Shown here piece by piece: positions 684 through 7,190 of a stretch of 33,804 bases of DNA (within the stretch, counting starts at the first letter, position 1; the number at the start of each line of letters is the position of its first letter). Under the pieces are notes generated by a model. That model saw nothing but the letters and a program-made list of their open reading frames with translations, made no database searches and was not told the DNA's origin. The DNA comes from an uncultured Spartobacteria bacterium (GTDB lineage Bacteria; Verrucomicrobiota; Verrucomicrobiia; Chthoniobacterales; UBA6821), in contig CAINEX010000110.1 in the NCBI GenBank assembly GCA_903847935.1, positions 1 to 33,804 of the forward strand, written 5' to 3'. Both the position numbers and the translations under genes were made by a program.

Positions 684-1415
684 CTAGTACCCGATGTCTA
701 AGCGGGATGCATTGGCCCAGGGCAATCCAGCATCCCTGATGCGTTGCTGTGCCCGCTTGATGTCGTAGGGAACCCTCTTCCAGGCAAAGGTGAGTCTCTC
801 GGTATCGAGTATTCCGTAGCAGGCTCTCGGGTAGTTATCCCGAGGTTGCCCCACGGAGCCCACATTGATGATGTATCGGAGACTCGGATCGAGTTTGAAT
901 GAGCCGACTCCCGGTGTCTCGAGGGTGACGACGCTCTCATCCTGGATGGCGATCAGTGGGGAGTGGGTGTGACCGATGAATGAGAAAGGGGTCCTCTGGT
1001 GCTCAAAGTGCCACTTGGCGTCATCCTTCGCGGTGATGTAGTTAAAGTCCTTTGGTTCATACAGACTCGAATGCACCAGCGTGAGTGCCTCTCTTTCCAC
1101 AACAATGGGGAGTTTCTTGAGCCACTTGATCTGCTCCGTGGAGAGTTGCTCACGGGCAAGACAGAGTGGAGCCGCGACGCGCTCCAAGCCAATAATGGGT
1201 CCCTTCTCAATGACCATGTGGTCGTGGTTCCCCAAGACCGTAACCGAACAATGGGTCCTCACCAGTTCAACACACTCCGCCGGTGCTGCCCCGTAGCCAA
1301 CAATATCCCCTAGGCAAAAGATCTCGTTAGTGCCCTGAGCGTCGATGTCCGTGAGGACCTGCTCAAGGGCATCGATATTGGCGTGGATGTCAGAGATAAA
1401 AGCGATGCGGGACAT
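684..1415 (-). CDS. Calcineurin-like metallophosphoesterase, cassette 1
   Basis: A 243-residue phosphoesterase of the YfcE/diadenosine-tetraphosphatase-like type. The dinuclear-metal motifs appear in order: SDIHAN near residue 8, CLGDIVGYG near 34, LGNHDH near 60, a histidine in LVHSS near 114, and GHTHSP near 148. It ends with a conserved INVGSVGQPRD stretch that also occurs in its paralogue at 5074-5874. The family cleaves phosphomono- or diesters or dinucleotide polyphosphates; the substrate here is unknown. It lies downstream of orfC1 behind a candidate terminator and an intergenic CCTAGG element, so it may have its own promoter. The ATG at 1415 is the natural start, with the metal motif beginning six residues later. 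Confidence 0.9.
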   Translation of the reverse strand: MSRIAFISDIHANIDALEQVLTDIDAQGTNEIFCLGDIVGYGAAPAECVELVRTHCSVTVLGNHDHMVIEKGPIIGLERVAAPLCLAREQLSTEQIKWLKKLPIVVEREALTLVHSSLYEPKDFNYITAKDDAKWHFEHQRTPFSFIGHTHSPLIAIQDESVVTLETPGVGSFKLDPSLRYIINVGSVGQPRDNYPRACYGILDTERLTFAWKRVPYDIKRAQQRIRDAGLPWANASRLDIGY

Positions 1416-1445
1416 GGAAAAAGAGTATCAGAAATATTGGTCCTA

Positions 1446-1463
1446 GAGTGTCCTAGGCCTAAA
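1446..1463. repeat. Dispersed CCTAGG element, copy B
   Basis: GAGTGTCCTAGGCCTAAA matches copies A and C over 18 bases. It sits about 31-48 bases upstream of the metallophosphoesterase ATG, directly after the T run of the candidate terminator at 1461-1524. A partial repeat (TCCTAG) immediately precedes it. Position next to a start codon, as with copy C, is compatible with a protein-binding site, but this is inference. Confidence 0.5.
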
Positions 1464-1524
1464 AAAGATCTCACTTTCTTTACCTATTGGGTTGGGCAAT
1501 GGAGAACCTCCCCCCGAGATCTTT
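1461..1524 (-). terminator. Candidate intrinsic terminator after orfC1
   Basis: On the minus strand AAAGATCTC (1524-1516) starts within the orfC1 stop region and is matched by GAGATCTTT (1472-1464), followed by further T residues to 1461. The 9-bp stem is perfect, but the loop is long (about 43 nt, with an inner GGAG/CTCC hairpin). It would separate the orfA1-B1-C1 operon from the metallophosphoesterase. The equivalent junction of cassette 2 also has a terminator-like hairpin. Confidence 0.45.
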
Positions 1525-2066
1525 CATCGTTTCCCATAGTTGTGAATCTGAGGTCTGTTTTGCCAAATCAACTTGGCTACTAGAGTACGTAGTTCTTGGC
1601 GCAGAGACTTCTCGTCGTCTGTTTTAGCCCTCTTCCAAGATCCACTTAAGCCGGGAGCATCTCCGCCCCACCCTTCGCTCTCAATGGAAAGATGACGCGC
1701 ACGGGCAGCCAGAGACTGAAAGGATTCAAACTCTCTTAGAGAGTACTTTTTCCAGACCGGTAGTAGGCCCGACCAATCTAAAAGTTCCACTGAAATATTG
1801 TCGTCGCCTGAGGCGATTTCCCTCCAACCGTCATCCTCCGCATCTTCTGTTTCCTCATCCTCGACCTGATCGTCTTCCATCACCTCGCACTCATCAATCG
1901 GGCGCCTAAAAAAGAACTTATAGGTGGGTGGATCTGTCGGTGCCGGGTTAGATGGGCGCTGAGTCACTATAAGGTCAGAATTCTCAGACTCTGATGAGGC
2001 ACGCATCAACTCGGCGAATGCTGCAAGCGTCCGTGGTGGCTTTACTGGTTTGGCTTCTTCTTTCAT
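1524..2066 (-). CDS. Uncharacterised protein, orfC of cassette 1
   Basis: A 180-residue protein I do not recognise. The N-terminus is lysine/proline-rich (MKEEAKPVKPPRTLAAFAEL), followed near residues 65-85 by a strongly acidic stretch (EDDQVEDEETEDAEDDG). The C-terminal part is rich in tryptophan and charged residues and looks globular (around WSGLLPVWKKYSLREFESF and residues after it). No signal peptide or membrane segment is seen. The start is well supported: GAGGAGGAA, formed by the last codons of orfB1, lies about 9 bases upstream of the ATG, so translation is probably coupled. It is the third gene of the cassette 1 operon; the cassette 2 counterpart is unrelated in sequence. Confidence 0.7.
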   Translation of the reverse strand: MKEEAKPVKPPRTLAAFAELMRASSESENSDLIVTQRPSNPAPTDPPTYKFFFRRPIDECEVMEDDQVEDEETEDAEDDGWREIASGDDNISVELLDWSGLLPVWKKYSLREFESFQSLAARARHLSIESEGWGGDAPGLSGSWKRAKTDDEKSLRQELRTLVAKLIWQNRPQIHNYGKR

Positions 2067-2074
2067 GTTTGGGC

Positions 2075-2392
2075 TTATTCCTCCTCGTAGTCGTCCTGCT
2101 CTTCCGGGGAACAGAACTTCACGATTTCCTCCTGTTCTTCTTCAGTCAGAGGACGTCCCAGTTTTTTTTCTTCGCTTTCGACGTATGCTTGGATCACGTC
2201 GTCGATCTCTCCGATGTCGGTATACCATCCGCGATCTTTGGATGAGGACTCCTCCTCATCTTCAGGGACGTCTGGTACTACCGATGGATCTGGCTTCGGG
2301 GGTTCGTAGGGTCTGAATGGAATCAATATGCCCTTTCCTCCCCCGAAGAGAGTTTCCCCCGGGCGTGCTTTTCTGAATGTTGCTTTCCCCAT
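2075..2392 (-). CDS. Acidic uncharacterised protein, orfB of cassette 1
   Basis: A 105-residue protein without a family I can name. It begins MGKATFRKARPGETLFGGGK, basic and glycine-rich, then turns proline-rich and highly acidic, ending in a Glu/Asp cluster (EEQDDYEEE). A central segment (DIGEIDDVIQAYVESEEKK) is probably helical. There are no membrane segments. It lies 4 bases after orfA1 and 8 bases before orfC1, so the three are almost certainly co-transcribed. The charge split, basic at the start and acidic at the end, could suit a partner of a basic DNA-binding protein such as OrfA, but that is speculation. Confidence 0.7.
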   Translation of the reverse strand: MGKATFRKARPGETLFGGGKGILIPFRPYEPPKPDPSVVPDVPEDEEESSSKDRGWYTDIGEIDDVIQAYVESEEKKLGRPLTEEEQEEIVKFCSPEEQDDYEEE

Positions 2393-2396
2393 GGCC

Positions 2397-2669
2397 TTAG
2401 TCCTCGTAGTGGGAAGCTTCGTTCAGGATCGAATCTCTCAAGACCCGAGCCAATGAAGAGTCGGCAGTGTGCAGACTCCTTCTCACACGGCGCTTGGTGT
2501 GGTCGGGAAGGTGCTCGGTGTAGTGGCACCACCAGGTGCCGTTGTTGTTCCAGAGGTGGTGGAACGGATTATCGGTGGTCCTGATGGAGAGGACTCCTCT
2601 ATCGGGTGTTGCCCTGCTCTGAAGGGTTGTCCTTGAAGTGCTCGGGTAGGTTGTATTCGCTGTGCTCAT
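2397..2669 (-). CDS. OrfA, copy 1: stand-alone recombinase arm-domain-like protein
   Basis: A 90-residue basic protein. Residues about 26-80 contain GTWWCHYTEH, then KRRVRRSLHT, then a helix SSLARVLRDSIL. This order of two or three beta-strands plus an alpha-helix, with R-R-SL-T between them, is the pattern of the N-terminal arm-binding domain of phage-type tyrosine recombinases. No core-binding or catalytic R-H-R-Y region follows, and the frame ends soon after the helix. Copy 2 at 6674-6898 is identical over SIRTTDNPFHHLWNNNGTWW and beyond, even at DNA level, but has a shorter N-terminus. It heads an operon with orfB1 and orfC1, and its ATG lies three bases after a perfect hairpin. A DNA-binding role is inferred, not shown. 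Confidence 0.75.
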   Translation of the reverse strand: MSTANTTYPSTSRTTLQSRATPDRGVLSIRTTDNPFHHLWNNNGTWWCHYTEHLPDHTKRRVRRSLHTADSSLARVLRDSILNEASHYED

Positions 2670-2672
2670 GTG

Positions 2673-2700
2673 GGTGTTTCAGTTGGTTGGTTGAAACACC
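2673..2700 (-). promoter_or_regulatory. Hairpin abutting the orfA1 start codon
   Basis: On the transcript GGUGUUUCA pairs with UGAAACACC around a 10-nt loop of ACC/AAC repeats, and the stem ends three bases before the ATG. The 9-bp stem is perfect and is repeated exactly at 6902-6929 before orfA2. No Shine-Dalgarno sequence is visible, so the hairpin could occlude or position the ribosome, or bind a protein. Confidence 0.6.
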
Positions 2701-2715
2701 AGGAAACCGGGCAAT

Positions 2716-2748
2716 AAAAAAAGCGCCTCTCCTTCAGGAAAGACGCTT
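2716..2748 (-). terminator. Intrinsic terminator of structured RNA 1
   Basis: Minus-strand AAGCG...CGCTT with mostly paired interior (including TCCT/AGGA) is followed by a run of seven T residues. It lies between the structured RNA and orfA1, so it either ends a separate small RNA or attenuates the orfA1 operon. Confidence 0.75.
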
Positions 2749-2940
2749 ATCAAAGCCTGGAGAGATTGTTGTTCGGAGGATTTCTCCCCTCCGCACATCG
2801 GACGGCTTTCGCCATCCAAACCACCGTGGGATTCTCCATCCTCGGTAGGCAGTCCTTGGTGTTACCCGAGGACATTCCTGATGTTGAAAATAATCTAGCA
2901 TACTCGACCGTGAGGCGCAAATTCCCCGTGTGTCATAAAC
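2716..2940 (-). ncRNA. Candidate structured leader or small RNA, copy 1
   Basis: This gene-free stretch is homologous to 6944-7190. Shared blocks include TATGACACACG at the 5' side, CATCAGGAATG, GTGCGG, GAGAAATCC and a 3' terminator. Helices supported by both copies (window coordinates, minus strand) are: hairpin 2872-2884 (ACAU/AUGU) or the competing pair 2869-2873 with 2852-2856; helix 2843-2848 with 2821-2826 enclosing a GGA/UCC hairpin; a 7-bp hairpin capped by a GAAA tetraloop at 2800-2817; and hairpin 2774-2793. The loop sequence UCAGGAA (2875-2881) is complementary to UUCCUGA in the terminator 5' arm (2734-2740). I could not match it to a riboswitch or ribozyme family from memory. The 5' end is approximate; it begins right after the NPY-repeat gene. 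Confidence 0.65.
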
Positions 2941-2941
2941 T

Positions 2942-3385
2942 TCAAGGACTGATAAGGGAGGGAGCCTCCGTGGCGTAGGGATTACGCGCGCTCTGTGCGC
3001 CATAGGGGCTTCCGTACTGACCGTAGGGGTTGTTGATGCTTTTGGCGGAATAAGGGCTCCCGTACTGGCCGTAGGGATTGGCGGTCGAGACAGCGTCGTA
3101 GGGGTTCGCGCTCTTACGTCCCAGGTAGGTGCCGTCGGGGGCGACGATTCGGGGAGCCTCCGTGGTGTAGGGATTGTTCACGCTGGTGGAGGAGTAGGGA
3201 CTTCCGTACTGGCCGTAGGGATTATGAATGCTCTGCGCTGAATACGGGCTCCCGTATTGGCCGTAGGGATTCCCGGTGGACTTAGAGGCGTACGGGTTGG
3301 CACTGAGTTGGCCCAGGTACTCCTGAGAGTAGGCGCTGGCGGTCATGAGCAAGAGAGGCAGGAGGAGCGGGAGTCTTTTCATCAA
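2942..3385 (-). CDS. Secreted NPYGQYGSPY tandem-repeat protein
   Basis: A 147-residue exported protein with a clear signal peptide (MMKRLPLLLPLLLMTASAYS, cleavage expected near residue 20). The mature part consists of repeats around NPYGQYGSPYSAQSI. It is arranged as two similar halves, each starting with YLGQLSANPY or YLGRKSANPY and ending in NPYTTEAP or NPYATEAP, joined by PRIVAPDGT. Short secreted proteins with this repeat occur in many bacteria and have no established function. The DNA is correspondingly repetitive. It lies between rmuC and structured RNA 1, with a CCTAGG element 20-44 bases upstream of its ATG. Its stop codon is only a few bases before the RNA 1 block, so RNA 1 might be made by processing or read-through of this transcript. 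Confidence 0.8.
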   Translation of the reverse strand: MMKRLPLLLPLLLMTASAYSQEYLGQLSANPYASKSTGNPYGQYGSPYSAQSIHNPYGQYGSPYSSTSVNNPYTTEAPRIVAPDGTYLGRKSANPYDAVSTANPYGQYGSPYSAKSINNPYGQYGSPYGAQSARNPYATEAPSLISP

Positions 3386-5073: not shown

Positions 5074-5874
5074 TTACTCCCCCTTTGACAGTCTCTCGGC
5101 ATTCTGAGCCGGAACCCCCGCCTTCCTATACCGTGCCTGGGCCTTCTTGATGTCGTACTCCACACGGCGCATGAGGAGGAGGTTCTGCTCGTAATCGTAA
5201 AGAGCGTAGGAGGCGCGGACATCGCCATCTCGGGGCTGGCCCACCGACCCGACGTTGACCGTGTAGCGCTTCGAGGGATTGAGTCGGATGGGTTGATCGG
5301 TGGGTTTGAGGGAGCGGACCCCAAAGGTCTCAGGATTCTCCTCCCAAATCCCCGGGACGTGGGTGTGACCATTGAAGCTGATAAAGGTGGTCTGGGCGGC
5401 AAAGTGAGCCTCAGCCTCGGTGGTCTCATAGATGTAGTGGAAATGGCTCGGCTCGTTCAGCGAGGCATGGGAAAGGGTGATCGGGTCTAGGTCCGCGGTG
5501 ATCTGTAGAGCCCTGATCCAAGCCAGATCACTCTTGCTGACCTGCTCCTGGGCAATCTTTAAGGGGTGGCGGAGCGAAACGTCCCAGTCTTCGTCCAAGA
5601 TCTTGTCGGCCAGCAGGAGCATCGCCTCGTGGTTGCCAAGCACGCTCACAGAACAGACCTCCATCACACGATTCAGGCAGGCTCCCGGCTCTGATCCGTA
5701 ACCGACGATATCCCCCAGGCAAAACATTCCCCTCACGGGAAAGTCCGCGATGTCCTTTAAGACAGCCTCCAGGGCGTCGATGTTGGCGTGGATATCACTG
5801 AAGATGGCGAAGAAGTTATTCGTGGATTGAAGGATGTAATTGGACGTCTTGGTGGATTTCTTGGTTTTGGGCAT
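5074..5874 (-). CDS. Calcineurin-like metallophosphoesterase, cassette 2
   Basis: About 266 residues, a clear paralogue of the enzyme at 684-1415. Shared features are SDIHANIDALE, FCLGDIVGYG, VSVLGNHE (an E where copy 1 has D), FNGHTHVPG, and the VNVGSVGQPRD stretch near the C-terminus, followed by YDIKKAQARYRKAG. It carries a short basic Ser/Thr/Lys N-terminal extension (MPKTKKSTKTSN). The GTG at 5943 would extend the frame, but it lies in the T run of an apparent terminator, so the ATG at 5874 is preferred. That ATG follows an AC-rich stretch without a Shine-Dalgarno site. It occupies the same place relative to RNA 2 and orfA2 as copy 1 does in cassette 1. The substrate is unknown. Confidence 0.9.
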   Translation of the reverse strand: MPKTKKSTKTSNYILQSTNNFFAIFSDIHANIDALEAVLKDIADFPVRGMFCLGDIVGYGSEPGACLNRVMEVCSVSVLGNHEAMLLLADKILDEDWDVSLRHPLKIAQEQVSKSDLAWIRALQITADLDPITLSHASLNEPSHFHYIYETTEAEAHFAAQTTFISFNGHTHVPGIWEENPETFGVRSLKPTDQPIRLNPSKRYTVNVGSVGQPRDGDVRASYALYDYEQNLLLMRRVEYDIKKAQARYRKAGVPAQNAERLSKGE

Positions 5875-5932
5875 GGTGGGTTCGTTTGGGTTGGTGGGTG
5901 ATGCTTTGAAGGAGGGGCATGCATTTCGCAAA

Positions 5933-5963
5933 AAAACACACACCCCTCTACCCTTAGGGGAAT
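5933..5963 (-). terminator. Candidate intrinsic terminator after orfC2
   Basis: Minus-strand CCCCT pairs with AGGGG around an 8-nt loop; a short TGTGTG spacer then leads to seven T residues. The stem is short, and the spacer weakens the call. It lies 16-46 bases after the orfC2 stop, as at the matching junction of cassette 1. Confidence 0.45.
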
Positions 5964-5978
5964 ATCCCAGCGCTTTTG

Positions 5979-6449
5979 TTAGGCGATCTGGGTCTTGGTG
6001 TTTTCACCGAGTTCCCTAAGCCGGTACTGGAGTGCCGGAAGGACGAGATCTCCCTCAGCTTCCGCAAAGTGCCAATCGTTGCCCGGACATACCCCGTAGT
6101 AGTACTTGATCTCCCCCACGCTCCTGCCCCCTTCGTCCCTGACGTCACGGTTGGCGAGTTTCAGACCCGCCAGATACTCGAGGGCCTGCGCTTCGGGGCT
6201 ATCCTGGTAGGCGTATCGGCCTTCGAAGTAGTTTTCCCAGACGCGGTAAGGAACTTCATTGTCGAGCCAGTCGCTGCTCTTTCTTCCAAGGTGGTAGTCG
6301 TGCCTGTGCTCGCGGACCCACTTGCCTAGGTCGTTGCGGTCATCGACATTGATCCCCTGATAGTTATCAAGCCAATCCCTCCAGCTGGGGGCCCCGAGAG
6401 CTGCCGCACCGCTGATGAGGAAATGCCTTCTGGAGAGATTAGTGCTCAT
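5979..6449 (-). CDS. Tat-exported uncharacterised protein, orfC of cassette 2
   Basis: A 156-residue protein beginning MSTNLSRRHFLISGAAALGA, which fits a twin-arginine signal (SRRHFL, then a short hydrophobic and alanine-rich segment). The mature part is aromatic and charged (WRDWLDNYQGINVDDRNDLG, VWENYFEGRYAY, IKYYYGVCPGNDWHFAEAE) and looks globular. I recognise no family, and no cofactor motif is visible. Tat export implies folding in the cytoplasm before transport. Its ATG overlaps the end of orfB2 by 11 bases, so translation is coupled. It is the last gene of the orfA2 operon; its cassette 1 counterpart (1524-2066) has no similar sequence and no signal peptide. Confidence 0.75.
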   Translation of the reverse strand: MSTNLSRRHFLISGAAALGAPSWRDWLDNYQGINVDDRNDLGKWVREHRHDYHLGRKSSDWLDNEVPYRVWENYFEGRYAYQDSPEAQALEYLAGLKLANRDVRDEGGRSVGEIKYYYGVCPGNDWHFAEAEGDLVLPALQYRLRELGENTKTQIA

Positions 6450-6648
6450 CGGGATCGGGGCGGATCGTTTTGGCGACGTTCTGCACCCCTAGGAAAAGGC
6501 CCATGTAGGTGCTCTCTGCCAACTCGTCCGCAAAACTACGAAAGGTTGGATCCTGACGTGTACTCAGCCTCTCGGAGAGTTCCTGCAATCGTTGAAGGTC
6601 GCTCAAAGGGGCTGGTTCCTGATCCGAGGGTGTCTGTGGAGTGCTCAT
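6439..6648 (-). CDS. Small uncharacterised protein, orfB of cassette 2
   Basis: A 69-residue hydrophilic protein starting MSTPQTPSDQEPAPLSDL, with a probable helix over LQRLQELSERLS and a second one over SFADELAESTYMGLFLGVQN. The C-terminus is charged (RPDPDEH). I do not recognise it. It overlaps orfC2 by 11 bases and follows orfA2 by 25 bases. Such overlap makes it probable that it is translated, despite its small size and the lack of a clear Shine-Dalgarno site. It shares no obvious similarity with orfB1. Confidence 0.65.
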   Translation of the reverse strand: MSTPQTPSDQEPAPLSDLQRLQELSERLSTRQDPTFRSFADELAESTYMGLFLGVQNVAKTIRPDPDEH

Positions 6649-6673: not shown

Positions 6674-6898
6674 CTAGGCCTCGAAGTGAGGGGCTTCGCT
6701 AAGGAGAGAATCCCGTAATACCCTCGCGATGCCAGAGTCGCTTGTATGGAGGCTCCTCCTCACACGACGCTTGGTGTGGTCGGGAAGGTGCTCGGTGTAG
6801 TGGCACCACCAGGTGCCGTTGTTGTTCCAGAGGTGGTGGAACGGATTATCGGTGGTCCTGATTGAAAGGACCGGCCTGTCGAGTGTTGCTGTGCTCAT
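6674..6898 (-). CDS. OrfA, copy 2: stand-alone recombinase arm-domain-like protein
   Basis: A 74-residue basic protein, MSTATLDRPVLSIRTTDNPF onward, identical to copy 1 through the central block ending KRRVRRSLHT and similar in the final helix (SGIARVLRDSLLSEAP). The layout W-W-x-x-Y, basic strand with SL-T, then an alanine/arginine helix resembles the arm-binding domain of tyrosine recombinases, without the rest of the enzyme. About 100 bp of DNA is nearly identical between the copies (positions about 6737-6860 and 2482-2600), much more than in the flanking RNA, so recent conversion or strong constraint is likely. It is preceded by the same start-codon hairpin and by RNA 2. Confidence 0.75.
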   Translation of the reverse strand: MSTATLDRPVLSIRTTDNPFHHLWNNNGTWWCHYTEHLPDHTKRRVRRSLHTSDSGIARVLRDSLLSEAPHFEA

Positions 6899-6901
6899 GT
6901 G

Positions 6902-6929
6902 GGTGTTTCAGTTGGTTGGTTGAAACACC
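6902..6929 (-). promoter_or_regulatory. Hairpin abutting the orfA2 start codon
   Basis: The stem, loop and distance to the ATG are the same as at 2673-2700: GGUGUUUCA with UGAAACACC and three bases to the start codon. Exact conservation, while the terminator stem upstream has diverged, suggests that the sequence itself matters. Confidence 0.6.
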
Positions 6930-6943
6930 AGGAACCCGGGCAA

Positions 6944-6987
6944 TAAAAAAAGCGCCCCGATGATCGGAAGATCAGGAAGGGCGCTTT
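6944..6987 (-). terminator. Intrinsic terminator of structured RNA 2
   Basis: Minus-strand AAAGCGCCC and GGGCGCTTT enclose an inner TGATC/GATCA hairpin with a TTCC loop, followed by a T run. The stem differs from that of RNA 1 in most inner positions but keeps the same base and the UUCCUGA sequence of the 5' arm. Confidence 0.8.
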
Positions 6988-7190
6988 GAAAAAGCCTGAA
7001 GAGATTTTTGTTCGGCGGATTTCTCCCGCCGCACATCGATCGAATCGCTTCGATCAGCCACCGTAGGATTTCTCCGTCCCCGGTTGGCAGCACTGGCTAT
7101 TACCCCAATGCATTCCTGATGCTTGTACTTGGATAGCAGAACTCCCCACCCGATGCAAGCCACGGCGGTAAACTTCGTGTGTCATAGTCA
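6944..7190 (-). ncRNA. Candidate structured leader or small RNA, copy 2
   Basis: Homologous to 2716-2940. Helices on the minus strand: hairpin 7110-7122 (GCAU/AUGC, loop CAGGA), competing with 7107-7111 paired to 7090-7094; helix 7081-7086 with 7058-7063 enclosing hairpin 7066-7075 (GGA-GAAA-UCC); 7-bp hairpin 7038-7055 with a GCGA tetraloop; hairpin 7013-7031 with a GAGAAAU loop; and the terminator. Compared with copy 1, most pairs of the tetraloop hairpin changed on both sides while pairing and the GNRA loop were kept. AUCAGGAA (7113-7120) is perfectly complementary over 8 bases to the terminator 5' arm (6971-6978), a possible antiterminator. A weak promoter-like pair (TTAACG, 17 bp, TATGAC) lies just upstream. 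The 5' end is approximate. Confidence 0.65.

Follow-up and report, generated by a model that had tools for sequence, protein, structure and literature searches.

In a 33,804-nt stretch of DNA from the genome of an uncultured freshwater Spartobacteria bacterium (hereafter the window), two related leader RNAs on the minus strand, RNA1 and RNA2, each precede a terminator and a short operon, raising the question of what kind of switch they form and what it responds to. The sequence-only reading had proposed a transcription attenuator or riboswitch from mutually exclusive pairings ahead of the terminator, a proposal now borne out by a match to RF01725, covarying aptamer helices and compensatory changes between strand and site. 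That reading had named no riboswitch class and had missed a second, translational gate. We consider it very probable, judging from sequence comparison, that each leader is a SAM-I/IV OFF switch working in two stages, the terminator and then a start-codon hairpin (Table 1).

At gathering thresholds, a search of the whole window against Rfam returned one tRNA and nothing else; the RF01725 matches appeared only when a shorter stretch was searched with laxer filters, RNA2 scoring above the gathering score of 41.1 bits and RNA1 alone below it. RNA1 is a paralogue of RNA2 (77–78% identical) and reaches 121.1 bits with our own model, R1. Matches of RNA1 to PyrR and leuA-Halobacteria were set aside, with scores far under the thresholds of those families, and of the attenuator families, T-box and PyrR included, none reached its threshold in the Rfam search of the leaders.

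The structure of P1–P5 with PK-2 was paired in 93.2% of cells across 29 homologues, with 22 two-sided pair changes, compared with only 35–47% in a control in which the partners were slid; P2, P4 and P5 were each 90–94% paired in this set, two-sided changes included. Across 85 homologues, in an alignment fitted to the model and hence leaning towards its structure, 94.4% of cells were paired and 29 of 35 pairs showed two-sided changes. P4 is present and covaries (two-sided changes at six of its seven pairs), P2 is continuous without an internal loop, and the P5 hairpin lies 3′ of P1. PK-2 joins the P3 loop to the strand after P5 (GGAGA/UCUC(C/U), 86% of cells paired) and is longer in loci L007 and L042 (GGAGAC/GUCUCC). 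The SAM-IV combination of P2a/P2b with PK-1 and no P4 does not occur in the leaders. The unbroken P2, P4, P5 and the pairing of the P3 loop with the post-P5 strand fit the description of SAM-I/IV in PMC2864571 and PMC6890682, the sources of the feature list compared here. RNA2 has all SAM-contact nucleotides, with the canonical A45 at 7085 (−), and RNA1 has all except for an A45U change at 2847 (−). Positions were numbered by mapping from the T. tengcongensis sequence. The SAM-I contact positions scored (U7, G11, A12, C44, A45, C47, G56, U57, G58, A87 and U88, from the conserved positions in PMC3764141) were retained in 76–85 of 85 homologues, position by position. These comparisons support the view that both leaders are SAM-sensing switches of the known SAM-I/IV class, ligand binding and switching being what we infer from them.

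Table 1. Predicted features of the two leaders and their operons in the window.
Feature	Position	Strand	Basis
RNA1 aptamer, SAM-I/IV riboswitch, P1–P5 and PK-2	2758..2889	−	RF01725, 36.8 bits, E 0.0023
RNA2 aptamer, SAM-I/IV riboswitch	6997..7127	−	RF01725, 45.1 bits, E 3.3e-05; R1, 144.6 bits
RNA1 switch strand: P1 5′ ACAUC (2884–2880), J1/2 AGGA (2879–2876), next A	2875..2884	−	RF01725 alignment, pairing analysis
RNA2 switch strand GCAUCAGGAA	7113..7122	−	RF01725 alignment, pairing analysis
RNA1 intrinsic terminator	2716..2748	−	Fold −17.9 kcal/mol and U-run
RNA2 terminator; UUCCUGAU pairs with switch strand, 8 bp	6950..6985	−	Fold −21.7 kcal/mol
RNA1 second site UUCCUGGUGU, 10 bp with switch strand ACAUCAGGAA	2696..2705	−	Pairing analysis
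RNA2 second site UUCCUGGUGU, 10 bp with switch strand	6925..6934	−	Pairing analysis
RNA1 start-codon hairpin GGUGUUUCA/UGAAACACC	2673..2700	−	Fold −10.9 kcal/mol; equivalents in homologues
RNA2 start-codon hairpin	6902..6929	−	Fold
RNA1 promoter TTGCGC (2920–2915), 17-nt spacer, TAGATT (2897–2892)	2892..2920	−	Sequence reading
RNA2 promoter TTGCAT (7158–7153), 17-nt spacer, TATCCA (7135–7130)	7130..7158	−	Sequence reading
RNA1 upstream element TTTATGACACA, just upstream of −35 box, possible operator	2929..2939	−	Fixed distance in leaders
RNA2 upstream element CTATGACACA	7178..7187	−	Sequence reading
90-aa small protein, DUF6538-like (integrase arm-type-like), gene 1 of RNA1 operon	2397..2669	−	Sub-threshold PF20172
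105-aa and 180-aa uncharacterised proteins and calcineurin-like phosphoesterase (684–1415), rest of RNA1 operon	684..2392	−	
74-aa small protein, 84% identical to its RNA1 paralogue	6674..6898	−	
69-aa and 156-aa uncharacterised proteins and calcineurin-like phosphoesterase, rest of RNA2 operon	5074..6648	−	

The conserved loop UCAGGAA proved to be the P1 5′ strand of the aptamer together with junction J1/2. It is complementary to the terminator on the minus strand just where this had first been pointed out: UCAGGAA (2881–2875) in RNA1 pairs over 7 bp with UUCCUGA (2740–2734) in the terminator 5′ arm and loop, and AUCAGGAA (7120–7113) in RNA2 with UUCCUGAU (6978–6971), and comparison of the two terminators agrees that they otherwise differ inside. 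A local hairpin of the same loop (ACAU/AUGU or GCAU/AUGC), also proposed at that stage, is not conserved (e.g. ACAUCAGGAAUGC, GCAUCAGGAACGC and ACAUCAGGAAUUCC in homologues); we rejected ACAU/AUGU, the 3′ half of which is part of aptamer helix P2. The terminator-arm site lies about 19 nt past the aptamer and forms 7–8 bp with the switch strand. When the 48 nt behind the aptamer were dinucleotide-shuffled 1000 times, equally good complementarity arose in 2.3% (RNA1) and 0.8% (RNA2) of cases, which makes each copy by itself modest evidence; it is the homologues that decide. Among 26 leaders of the genus, 11-mers over the switch strand were the best of all aptamer 11-mers for pairing with the terminator region. 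Both leaders appear to hold a terminator and a mutually exclusive antiterminator pairing, the arrangement of an intrinsic attenuator.

A second site complementary to the same strand, over 10–11 bp, lies 35–44 nt downstream of the terminator site and about 47–64 nt past the aptamer, where it belongs to the 5′ arm of the start-codon hairpin. In RNA1 (AUG at 2669) and RNA2 (AUG at 6898) alike, 3 nt separate the 3′ arm of this hairpin from the AUG. In both leaders the top match with the switch strand was reached by at most 0.1% of shuffles, and 11-mers over this strand beat all other aptamer 11-mers.

Checking the complementarity in homologues, as the sequence-only reading had advised, brought out a compensatory pattern. 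In 63 of 82 loci the switch strand had two complementary sites downstream, compared with 3.2 expected by shuffling, and complementarity between strand and downstream region reached p ≤ 0.05 in 62 of 68 loci. Strands of the UCAGGA type gave 23.4 with their own regions and 12.6 with those of the UUCCGA type; UUCCGA-type strands gave 23.5 with their own and 13.4 with those of the UCAGGA type. Substitutions in the switch strand were still paired in the sites in 64 of 68 cases, a compensation count biased by the choice of sites by score in the 82-locus count. Where J1/2 varies, the site varies to match: strand CGCAUUCCGAG with site UUCGGGAUGCG in L089, CAUUACGA with UCGUAAUG in L073 and CAUCGGGA with UCCCGAUG in L111. 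All three elements changed together in L038: the strand reads CAUUAGGA, the terminator has UUCCUAAU and the second site UCCUAGUGC. Retention of the loop with loss of terminator complementarity, the pattern named beforehand as contrary to a switch, was seen only in a few leaders, L022, L021, L024 and L032, where 5–6 bp are left; the second site is fully paired in the first three, and both sites are weakened in L032. L117, L077 and L083 have the canonical J1/2 and pair only with a bulge. Loci of the L008–L012 type, L103, L104 and L116 are without a terminator and have the second site only; in these relatives a hairpin runs from GAUGC, beside the complement of the switch strand, to ..GCAUC next to the AUG. 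Because these relatives keep the second site and the AUG hairpin, it seems that the same switch logic can work by translation alone.

The two-stage reading would run as follows. At high SAM, ligand binding would hold P1 and J1/2 within the aptamer, leaving the terminator to fold and transcription to stop, and any read-through RNA would be silenced by the hairpin, which would cover the start codon. When SAM is low, the strand, no longer held, would pair first with the terminator arm, giving antitermination, and would then shift to the longer second site, opening the start-codon hairpin too. The small protein and, behind it, the phosphoesterase operon would then be expressed; sister families in the order would use the second, translational gate only. 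In minimum-free-energy folds of the growing chain, which include neither kinetics nor pseudoknots, P1 had formed at 125 nt; the antiterminator was seen at 161 nt (in RNA2 at 173 nt as well), and pairing to the second site began at 197–209 nt. In the same models the full-length RNA without ligand favoured the second site over a forced P1 by 3–5 kcal/mol, and ligand binding might plausibly overturn this difference. Against the two-stage reading, most loci precede an uncharacterised protein and not a methionine gene.

A single working gate, with the terminator in control and the second site and hairpin as by-products, or the reverse with translation only, is unlikely in our judgement: the translational site stands alone in L103, L116, L104 and the L008–L012 type, indicating that one gate can suffice, and terminator pairing is weakened in a few relatives, but both sites are retained together in 63 of the 82 loci and were altered together in L038. 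Mutually exclusive pairings by themselves would equally suit an attenuator without a metabolite, in which a protein or the translation of an upstream peptide brings about antitermination. We regard this as highly improbable, given an RF01725 match above gathering, the conserved SAM pocket and the failure of T-box, PyrR and other attenuator families to reach threshold; moreover, as the transcript is predicted to begin right before P1, there would be no space for a leader peptide.

The remaining alternative concerns the ligand. Position 45 belongs to the adenine pocket, and U replaces A there in 8 of the 85 homologues, from more than one genus: RNA1, the copy on contig C100 (L150, about 594) and six relatives from other genera, all of which keep the remaining contacts. 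Because position 45 contacts adenine in SAM-I, the affinity or ligand of RNA1 and the C100 copy may differ. That some copies, these two included, combine a SAM-I/IV fold with sensing of another or weaker ligand is nevertheless doubtful, as A45 is retained by RNA2 and 76 of the 85 homologues, the genes behind the A45U copies belong to the same family, and the change could be tolerated or a sign of decaying paralogues. The A45U copies offer natural test cases of ligand specificity.

Across the phylum, the switch mostly precedes one uncharacterised small protein. A search of GTDB genomes with this protein gave 294 stretches, mostly from Verrucomicrobiota, and among the best-matching 80 of these this riboswitch lay upstream on the same strand in 71; an RNA-only search of an independent draw of genomes from the phylum gave 11 new riboswitches, eight of them ahead of the same protein family. 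Within the genus, 14 of 16 genomes have one to three copies, and the genome studied here carries a third on contig C100. The small protein (74–90 aa) has 17 invariant positions over 68 relatives. Searches of Pfam, NCBIfam and PDB sequences gave nothing on it beyond a weak likeness to DUF6538 (PF20172), seen in all but one of 12 members at E values down to 0.00077; the first member scored 17.7 bits against a gathering score of 27 bits, and no match rose above the cut-off in 28 genomes. Its pattern of GTWW..HYT, KRRVRRSL and AR..RD resembles the arm-type domain of tyrosine integrases, and on sequence the protein resembles an orphan domain of this kind. In L007 a ThiS-family sulfur carrier (Pfam match) follows the switch, which fits control of a sulfur/methionine regulon; in L042 and L033 this place is taken by a reading frame equivalent to the carrier, and in all three loci the switch also precedes an uncharacterised protein of 96–108 aa. 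The RNA1 and RNA2 operons both have a calcineurin-like phosphoesterase as their last gene. Within the window, the small-ORF coding and start-hairpin regions of the two copies (2400–2700 and 6700–6940) are nearly identical and their flanks differ, which we read as recent duplication or gene conversion. Directly upstream of RNA1 lies a gene for a 147-aa secreted-looking protein with NPYGQYGSPYS repeats (2942–3385, −).

Among known systems, the leaders share with SAM-I/IV (RF01725, ‘SAM-I-IV-variant’, Weinberg et al. 2010, PMC2864571) P1, the unbroken P2, the P3 pocket, P4, P5 after P1, PK-2 between the P3 loop and a 3′ strand, and the conserved pocket nucleotides; they differ in that most copies have AGGA, not AAGA, at J1/2, and in their two tandem complementary downstream sites and small uncharacterised partner protein. 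SAM-IV, known from cryo-EM (PMC6890682), shares the ligand core, P5 and PK-2, but has P2a/P2b and PK-1 and is without P4, whereas P4 is present here and P2 unbroken. SAM-I (S-box) riboswitches with transcription attenuation have the same pocket and switch OFF via a terminator, but contain a kink-turn in P2 and PK-1. Riboswitches that switch through P1 usually do so with its 3′ strand (PMC11477058), a role that falls to the 5′ strand in the present leaders. Like the dual-acting E. coli lysC (cited in PMC9373788) and S. meliloti SAM-II metA (PMC9373788), a single aptamer here would act at more than one level, but those systems join translation with RNA decay or stability, whereas the single strand at work in these leaders has complements first in a terminator and then in a start-codon hairpin. 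In the largely open-access literature searched on SAM-I/IV in Verrucomicrobia, on RF01725 and on dual platforms, neither the two-gate platform nor the partner protein was found. As far as that literature shows, three things are new: that the P1 5′ strand would open two gates in series, that the partner protein is nearly constant and that a subgroup carries A45U. For a known but little-studied class, the leaders supply an expression platform in Verrucomicrobiota that has comparative support and whose two gates are served, one after the other, by the P1 5′ strand, and an uncharacterised small-protein family whose expression would follow SAM across the phylum becomes testable for a role in sulfur/methyl metabolism.

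The leaders may also be controlled from upstream. The TTGC...TGCTAT promoter pattern is seen again in homologues, and TTTATGACACA or its reverse complement lies 50–51 or 61–62 nt before the aptamer in most loci of the phylum (the L043–L119 leaders included), two spacings that are one helical turn apart. TTATGACACA was matched at 9 or 10 of 10 positions in 46 of 70 loci, compared with 0.3 expected, and the reversed element was found in about nine further loci. Because 12 of the 15 exact TTTATGACACA sites in the genus stand at SAM-I/IV leaders (one of them truncated), an operator appears likelier than a mobile-element site, an idea raised by the two copies of TTATGACACA flanking an integrase gene on contig C73; of the other three sites, one is that at C73 and two fall within the coding sequence of unrelated genes. 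As a lead, an activator may bind at this element, and the small protein is one candidate for it. More tentatively, a phylum-wide module is conceivable in which the two-gate SAM-I/IV switch controls an integrase-arm-like protein that binds TTTATGACACA upstream of its own promoter, forming a feedback loop of SAM and protein in which A45U copies may have a shifted response. A truncated leader, L156 (G009:C92:9646), retains the upstream element, promoter and P1 5′ strand and then breaks off within P2. On contig C73 of the same genome as the window (L149, 1724–3100), the two copies of TTATGACACA stand in the same orientation, 1.37 kb apart, around a tyrosine recombinase gene that adjoins an apparent partial tRNA-Asp; the pair may be due to chance or may link the small protein to integrase arm sites.
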